A DNA stretch of 16,743 nt from Desulfobulbaceae bacterium (GTDB lineage: Bacteria; Desulfobacterota; Desulfobulbia; Desulfobulbales; Desulfocapsaceae): contig JAUVON010000024.1 in NCBI GenBank assembly GCA_030599175.1, positions 1-16,743 on the forward strand, written 5' to 3'. Below, one piece after another: positions 12,918 through 14,561 of the stretch. How positions within the stretch are numbered: the stretch's first letter is position 1; every line of letters begins with the position of its first letter. The notes beneath the pieces were generated by a model. That model saw nothing but the letters and a program-made list of their open reading frames with translations. It did not search any database and had not been told where the DNA came from. Position numbers and translations under genes: made by a program.

Positions 12918-13028
12918 ATGTCTGATGCCCATCATGATCACCATGAAGATAATGATGTAAATGTAAAAGTAGCCCTGTTTTTTGTCGCTGTGATAGTAGC
13001 TATTGTGTTTTTTGGCATTATCAACTGA
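12918..13028 (+). CDS. Small His-rich single-span membrane peptide, 36 residues (hypothetical)
   Basis: ATG 12918 follows GGAG by eight bases, 23 bases after the radA stop. The peptide has a His/Asp-rich head (MSDAHHDHHEDNDVNVK: five acidic residues and four histidines) and one hydrophobic helix (VALFFVAVIVAIVFFGIIN) ending at the TGA. The composition split, the ribosome site and close spacing to radA support a real gene. The head could bind a metal ion; that is inference. I recognise no family. A mobile palindromic element begins two bases after the TGA, and its flanking 7-base repeat includes the stop codon. Confidence 0.55.
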   Translation: MSDAHHDHHEDNDVNVKVALFFVAVIVAIVFFGIIN

Positions 13029-13029
13029 T

Positions 13030-13184
13030 GATGGAATCGTAAAAACTCTTCATCTACTTCGTTGCTATAAATTTTCTATCATCACGACGTACTTTAGTAC
13101 GCCGAAATGATAGAAAATTTATGCGCCTCGGATATGAAGTTTTTTACGAATCCATCCTGTAAAATATGTTTTTACGAAACCATC
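13030..13184. repeat. MITE-like palindromic element, 155 bp, with terminal inverted repeats and flanking direct repeats
   Basis: The ends, GATGGAATCGTAAAAAC at 13030-13046 and GTTTTTACGAAACCATC at 13168-13184, are inverted copies matching at 15 of 17 bases. AACTGAT flanks the element on both sides (13023-13029 and 13185-13191), as a target-site duplication would. Inside, 13030-13156 forms a near-continuous palindrome centred at 13094/13095, with a perfect 16-base arm pair (13067-13082 with 13107-13122) and CGTACT-TT-AGTACG at the tip. A second copy of the right-end motif is at 13139-13156. No protein is encoded, so it would be non-autonomous. Transcribed, it would fold into a long hairpin. 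Confidence 0.7.
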
Positions 13185-13286: not shown

Positions 13287-14561
13287 ATGGCAGGGAATAA
13301 ATCGGAACGGGAAGTTGTTATCCTGATGACTGATATGGTTCGATATTCCTGGAAAACTTCAGCCATGAACCCGGAGGAAATCAGAAAATTTCTAATCGAT
13401 TATCATACAGCCATACATACTCTTGTTGATCGGGAAGAAAATGGGCCCCTGGAGATAGACCCTTCCTCCGGAGATGGCTCTGTAATTATATTTGATAAGC
13501 GGTCTGGTGAGGACAGAGTCGCTATCTGCACCCGTGCACTGCAAGTTGCTGTGAGGGTAGCCCAGGCTATAAGTGACGGGCGTCTTCAGCCAACTCGCAT
13601 GGGATTATTCCTGGGTGACATAACCGAGGCCAGATTGGGGAGCAGAGTTCTCAAATTTGGTGCCAGCTTTGCAGTTGCGAATCGACTGGAGGAGCTTTGC
13701 GGCTATTTCGGCACTGATTTGCTGATGGATCGTGAGGTAGCCAGGTATCAGAAAGGGTACAACAAATATCTTCTCACTATTGCCAAGGTTAGCCTGACCA
13801 GTATTCTCCATCCGATGAATCTCTTTACTCTCTGCAAACCCGGTATTCAGAATTACCCGCCAGAAGTGGAAGAGGATCAGTTGCTTCGGTTTGTTGCGAT
13901 GAAAAATGAAGCGATGGAATTTTTTTCCGGTAACCTGCTGTTGGGAATTAAACCAGATTTCCCCAGGGTGCGGGAGATGTTGATCGAGGTGCAGAACTTT
14001 TTTCTTAAACTTACCGGAAGGGCCGATATTGGTACCGAGCGCATTTTAGAGTATATCCGGGAGACCCCCCTGCCGGCGCCTGATTTTGATCGACGGGGGA
14101 TGAAGCTTATGGAAAAAAGCCGTGATTCTCTTGGAGAGCGCATATTTCATCTTTCCAAACAGCTTTTAAAAGCAATGAATCCGGATTTTTACCATGCTCT
14201 TGTTGTGGATACTGAATGGGAGAAATATTTCCGACTGCAGTGGTTCAGGAAAGGGGAGACCATAATCGAGATCGACAGTGTTCCGGATGGTGTCTATTAC
14301 CTGGACAGCGGTGTTGCCGAAACAGTCAATGGCAAGGGAGAGGTGTTGTCCATGATGGAGGCGGGAACAATCTTCGGTGAGCTGGCATATTTTGGCAGGG
14401 AGCAGAAGCGTACGGCAACCGTACGTGCCAAAACCGATATGGTGGTCAGAAAAATATCTACGGAAGATTTTAAAAAGATGCCGGTAATAGTCGATATCTT
14501 CAAGAGAATTGCCATTGCCAGAAAAGAAGAAATTAAAGAGAGAGAAAGGTCTGTTGGTTAG
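13287..14561 (+). CDS. Class III nucleotide-cyclase-like domain fused to a cyclic-nucleotide-binding domain
   Basis: A 424-residue protein without signal peptide or membrane span. Residues 8-155 look like a class III cyclase catalytic domain: VVILMTDMVRYS with first metal Asp16, SGDGSVIIF with second metal Asp63, GLFLGDITEARLGS at 106-119, then KFGASFAVANRLEEL with Arg133. The usual substrate-selecting Lys before GDG appears replaced by Pro59, and the transition-state Asn of the VNxAxR motif by Ala129, so activity is uncertain. Residues 160-310 are a mostly helical linker. Residues 312-415 form a cNMP-binding domain: a PBC-type cassette at 363-379 (FGELAYFGREQKRTATV) retains Glu365 and Arg375, the ribose/phosphate contacts of CRP. 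No DNA-binding domain follows. GGAAGGG precedes the ATG by about six bases. It could make and sense its own messenger, or be a pseudo-cyclase controlled by one. Confidence 0.8.
   Translation: MAGNKSEREVVILMTDMVRYSWKTSAMNPEEIRKFLIDYHTAIHTLVDREENGPLEIDPSSGDGSVIIFDKRSGEDRVAICTRALQVAVRVAQAISDGRLQPTRMGLFLGDITEARLGSRVLKFGASFAVANRLEELCGYFGTDLLMDREVARYQKGYNKYLLTIAKVSLTSILHPMNLFTLCKPGIQNYPPEVEEDQLLRFVAMKNEAMEFFSGNLLLGIKPDFPRVREMLIEVQNFFLKLTGRADIGTERILEYIRETPLPAPDFDRRGMKLMEKSRDSLGERIFHLSKQLLKAMNPDFYHALVVDTEWEKYFRLQWFRKGETIIEIDSVPDGVYYLDSGVAETVNGKGEVLSMMEAGTIFGELAYFGREQKRTATVRAKTDMVVRKISTEDFKKMPVIVDIFKRIAIARKEEIKERERSVG

Follow-up and report, generated by a model that had tools for sequence, protein, structure and literature searches.

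Certain sulfur-cycling bacteria encode a 424-residue protein in which a degenerate class III cyclase domain is joined to an intact-looking cyclic-nucleotide-binding domain (CNBD), and because key parts of the cyclase active site have been lost from a protein whose sensor appears intact, it is probably a reader of a cyclic-nucleotide (cNMP) messenger rather than a maker of one. Throughout the family the loop that chooses the base in a class III cyclase is cut short, and the metal site never varies. The protein was found in a 16,743-nucleotide stretch of a Desulfobulbaceae genome (contig JAUVON010000024.1, assembly GCA_030599175.1), referred to here, at its full length, as the window; coordinates are collected in Table 1.

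Table 1. Positions of the features discussed in the text
Feature	Position	Strand	Remarks
Whole protein: cyclase domain of class III (degenerate), linker and CNBD	13287–14561	+	gene, 424 aa
Class III cyclase fold (predicted), residues 1–185	13287–13841	+	
Helical linker, residues 186–280	13842–14126	+	perhaps a diverged form of the TPR-like tail of cyclases
Helices, cNMP-binding beta barrel and C-terminal helix, residues 281–424	14127–14558	+	
Phosphate-binding motif, residues 363–381	within 14127–14558	+	
Codon of D16, first metal Asp	13332–13334	+	D in 235/235 members with a residue there
Codon of P59, substrate Lys position	13461–13463	+	K absent; P 223, S 11, A 1
Codon of D63, second metal Asp	13473–13475	+	D in 235/235
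Segment G110–R133, shortened loop	13614–13685	+	CHASE2 cyclases have four more residues here
Codon of A129, transition-state Asn position	13671–13673	+	N absent; A 201, S 34, T 1
Codon of R133, phosphate/transition-state Arg	13683–13685	+	R in 236/236
His-rich 36-aa peptide, one hydrophobic segment, between radA and the cyclase-CNBD gene	12918–13028	+	unannotated
Palindromic MITE-like 146-base repeat, between the small ORF and the cyclase-CNBD gene	13030–13175		
L105, CHASE2 cyclase	1237–3498 of L105	−	only PF00211 match in the window's own genome

A cyclase fold with a shortened active-site loop

Residues 1–185 are predicted to adopt the class III catalytic-domain fold, as the initial annotation had supposed, and the outcome that it had named as fatal to its reading, a first domain of some other fold, did not arise. 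Conservation in the active site was read from an alignment of 236 members, from which identical and contained sequences had been dropped, with residue roles taken from excerpts of the Rv1625c work (PMC4174876). Both metal aspartates and the phosphate-binding arginine are invariant (Table 1), R104 is kept in 235 of 235 aligned members, and the earlier placement of Pro59 and Ala129 at the lysine and asparagine positions is borne out by columns that never hold the catalytic residue. Set against what an active enzyme would carry, the protein thus has the two metal aspartates and lacks the substrate lysine and the Asp/Thr residue, and the transition-state pair is broken by the loss of asparagine from all 236 members, R133 alone being kept.

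The Asp/Thr column, as aligned, holds neither residue in family members. From G110 to R133 there are 24 residues in all 235 members in which the interval could be measured, compared with 28 in each of 36 CHASE2-type and related cyclases of the same order. An alignment with class III cyclases, one of the checks originally proposed, was made as a profile alignment against these 36; it is colinear over residues 4–264 (E 6.5e-17) and requires a four-residue gap at the Asp/Thr region, where a pairwise alignment with 5o5k places a gap of three. This fixed four-residue shortening implies that the base-selecting Asp/Thr position is missing.

The metal aspartates and the arginine remain invariant among members down to 42% identity, which indicates that the cyclase site is still under selection. 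The gene as a whole is under purifying selection, with dN/dS of about 0.2 (0.16 and 0.22 against the genes of genomes G005 and G002, respectively; dS is saturated against the next relative).

These same residues also speak for the leading alternative, an active but non-canonical cyclase with unusual base choice whose CNBD reads its own product. D16, D63 and R133 are equally expected of an active enzyme and so count against the loss of activity, R104 is likewise invariant, and according to the portions of PMC11224242 consulted, Pycsar cyclases vary widely in their base-choosing residues while the metal aspartates stay. In that source the CTP choice of EaPycC depends on large or polar residues which, counted from its numbering, lie two positions before the first metal aspartate and four and two before the second; the 424-residue protein has M14, P59 and S61 there, which are not large or polar residues of that kind, and the S61 position is alanine in 213 of 235 members. 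Since the loop is shortened and the asparagine lost in every member measured, and the cyclase part resembles Pycsar models so little (see below), we regard an active enzyme as unlikely. The initial annotation had offered a self-sensing synthase or a pseudocyclase; the latter is now favoured and the former ranks well behind it.

The linker

The cyclase domain ends at about residue 185, and the following region was described at first as helical and as matching no recognised domain. The helical character stands, and a fold search with the linker alone returned weak matches; nor was the region by itself significantly similar to the tail of CHASE2 cyclases. The profile alignment to these cyclases continues to residue 264, however, and extends through their TPR-like tail, which suggests, as a lead, that residues 186–270 are a remnant of that tail.

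The sensor and the source of its messenger

The C-terminal domain matches Pfam PF00027 with 60.7 bits (cut-off 27.5), and the glutamate and arginine of its phosphate-binding cassette, singled out earlier as Glu365 and Arg375, are kept in 230 and 229 of 231 members, respectively. A single member, from Desulfospira (L097), has both changed. Binding of a cyclic nucleotide would be expected from so intact a cassette. The residue following the cassette arginine is variable (T 152, N 63, S 15, R 1), and for this reason no claim is made for cAMP or cGMP.

A cellular source for such a messenger is likely, given the other class III cyclase-domain proteins present in the window's own genome and its relatives. 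The own genome (87% complete) has 8 PF00027 matches, including the cyclase-CNBD gene, and one PF00211 match, the CHASE2 cyclase L105; PF00211 matches outside the cyclase-CNBD family occur in 21 of 22 genomes, 18 of the 22 carrying the cyclase-CNBD gene. In G003 (87% complete, with two cyclase-CNBD copies) no PF00211 match and no messenger source were seen. L105 has threonine at the lysine position, arginine two residues before the metal aspartate and glycine at the Asp/Thr position, a pattern found also in two close relatives (3 of the 36 aligned cyclases), and its nucleotide choice may be unusual. Separately, L112 (1–1854, minus strand; truncated where the L112 sequence ends) encodes an enzyme of the lyase/fumarase family that carries a CNBD (PF00027, PF00206 and PF10415).

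That 21 of 22 genomes encode further proteins with a class III cyclase domain also speaks for a second alternative, in which the protein is half of an enzyme: it would offer its metal aspartates to a partner cyclase contributing the lysine, Asp/Thr and asparagine, so that the heterodimer would have one complete site and its product would feed back through the CNBD. The model for such an arrangement is domain C1 of mammalian adenylyl cyclase, which, in the excerpts of PMC4174876 consulted, supplies the metal aspartates while the other substrate residues come from elsewhere. The kept metal aspartates and the loss of the other substrate residues fit this pattern, except that R133, which belongs to the C2-type side, never varies either; the bacterial protein further differs from C1 in having no C2 in the same chain and in carrying a CNBD. 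Also against it, the only PF00211 cyclase of the own genome has threonine at the lysine position and glycine at the Asp/Thr position, and PF00211 matches occur also in G012, G018 and G028, genomes of the same family with no long cyclase-CNBD match. We therefore judge a half-cyclase rather improbable, slightly more so than an active enzyme.

Comparison with known systems

With CHASE2-type adenylate/guanylate cyclases such as L105 the protein shares the catalytic fold, the metal aspartates and the arginine; it differs in lacking the CHASE2 and membrane parts, in its C-terminal CNBD, and in the loss of the lysine, Asp/Thr and asparagine and the shorter loop. Its CNBD has the fold and the Glu/Arg cassette of those of CRP, HCN channels and PKA-R, with a cyclase-fold domain in place of their helix-turn-helix (HTH), channel or kinase partner. 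The protein is thus free of DNA-binding and membrane parts, in agreement with the initial annotation.

The same source had remarked that cyclases and cNMP receptors are normally separate proteins. The fusion is real, but it has a precedent in PADLOC model PDLC00734, a PycC (Pycsar cyclase with CNBD), so that the combination in one chain is already known in kind and lends some weight to an active enzyme. In that model the CNBD-like part (30–120 of 374) precedes the cyclase part (about 182–322), the opposite order. L105 matches the PDLC00734 cyclase part at E 4.2e-20, whereas residues 1–190 of the window protein match 0 PADLOC families, and hence no PycC model, at E ≤ 1, and the cyclase part of the distant member L044 matches PDLC00734 weakly (E 0.0038). 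The family departs from this precedent in its domain order, its fixed shortening and its retained metal site. Among the listings and excerpts consulted, which included few subscription journals, no description of this fusion or of such pseudocyclases was found; the word cyclase is absent from the main text of Kannan et al. 2007 (PMC2246266).

That the protein belongs to a Pycsar-like anti-phage system is very improbable: the CNBD matches PycTIR models at E 3.3e-15 and, at E 1.3e-6, one PycC model in its CNBD part, but the protein matches through this domain only, its gene occupies a conserved place flanked by radA and degP, no cNMP-gated effector gene adjoins it at the window locus, where radA and a DegP-type protease are the neighbours, and no plasmid or phage match was obtained at E 1e-5.

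A proposed mode of action

The reading that we favour, with somewhat better than even confidence, is that of a soluble cNMP receptor with a pseudocyclase as its partner module. It builds on the predicted fold, the residue pattern and its conservation, the shortened loop and the purifying selection to propose a ligand, a dimer, an allosteric step and an output. The CNBD would bind a cyclic nucleotide whose synthesis takes place elsewhere in the cell, and binding would shift the C-helix and the linker. The pseudocyclase fold would form the usual head-to-tail dimer and might bind triphosphate or pyrophosphate together with Mg but not carry out the normal cyclisation, and the output would be a change in conformation or in partner binding of this N-terminal fold. 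Counting against a pseudocyclase receptor, besides the invariant residues, are the member lacking the CNBD glutamate and arginine, the genome with no PF00211 match, and the lack of a partner gene that names an output.

The family is a clean example of a class III cyclase fold that has lost base recognition by a fixed loop shortening and has kept its metal site, with a cNMP sensor fused to it. If the domain does bind a nucleoside triphosphate or a partner cyclase, the family would illustrate how an inactive cyclase acquires a second use as a cNMP-controlled switch, in bacteria whose cNMP-binding proteins are many and whose cyclases are few, as in the own genome.

Distribution and genomic context

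A search for the same architecture and its conserved neighbours, also proposed at the outset, recovered the family and a conserved position; no conserved partner gene naming an output was found among the loci examined. With 6831 candidates the search gave 491 proteins at E ≤ 1e-3, and a profile search with 7999 gave 531, with query coverage of 93–100% for the best 120 of each set. Of the 58 genomes searched, 37 are from the window's own family, and 26 of these have long matches, or 27 if a fragment at a contig edge is counted; the 21 from other families of the same order have none. A scan of genome contigs gave 57 loci, labelled mostly Desulfobulbaceae and Desulfocapsaceae, the remainder being a few Desulfobacterales, one Syntrophobacterales, unassigned deltaproteobacterial MAGs and one labelled Puia, which may be misbinned. 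The nearest relatives are the Desulfobulbaceae MAGs S3730MH12 and UBA2775 (96–97%).

The usual gene order is cysZ-like (−), radA (+), the cyclase-CNBD gene (+), degP (−) and DAHP synthase (−), with lon, acyl-CoA carboxylase-like or membrane protein genes, as read from sequence, inserted at some loci. Among 64 loci classed by context, some of them possibly one species via two sources, 34 lie within four genes of radA or degP; a thioesterase gene marks 5, recBCD-like genes mark 3, and 22 have none of these, several of the 22 being short contigs. Context clusters on a tree of 57 rows, changing 8 times where shuffled contexts change 22.2 times on average, and none of 200 shuffles gave so low a number; copies elsewhere are thus mainly separate lineages. 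In 19 of the 20 loci whose nearest called gene on the same strand is radA, more than 100 bases separate the two; the neighbourhood is therefore read as a conserved position, and an operon partner at radA/degP was rejected as the main reading.

Part of this gap is filled by the small ORF of Table 1, whose peptide has no Pfam family above cut-off. It is present at 31 of the 34 radA/degP loci and 0 of the 30 others, some of which are short contigs; in this count L090, which has no small-ORF match, was scored with a wrong gene position, the one entered by hand for L066. The ORF ends less than 300 bases from the cyclase-CNBD gene in 25 loci, often less than 100, and joint transcription with the radA side may thus occur. 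Of 58 genomes from the order, 39 have relatives of the ORF (E ≤ 1e-5), among them genomes that lack the cyclase-CNBD gene, such as G018, where the ORF directly follows radA; an obligate partnership was accordingly rejected. From the ORF to the gene start there are 49 bases in two sister genomes and 261 in the window (at L049, with the ATG that matches the window's). The own genome carries the 146-base repeat at no fewer than 40 places (72 match rows on both strands; 40 of 91 candidates scored).

At L035, L077 and L095 the gene lies behind a same-strand recD-like gene (shown for L077), with upstream genes read from sequence as recB and recC, and the two full rows of these copies form a branch of their own (100/100). 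At L044, L086, L087, L089 and L091 the next gene is thioesterase-like and belongs to a single cluster (4HBT at L087, where this was shown), at spacings from a 4-base overlap to 126 bases apart.
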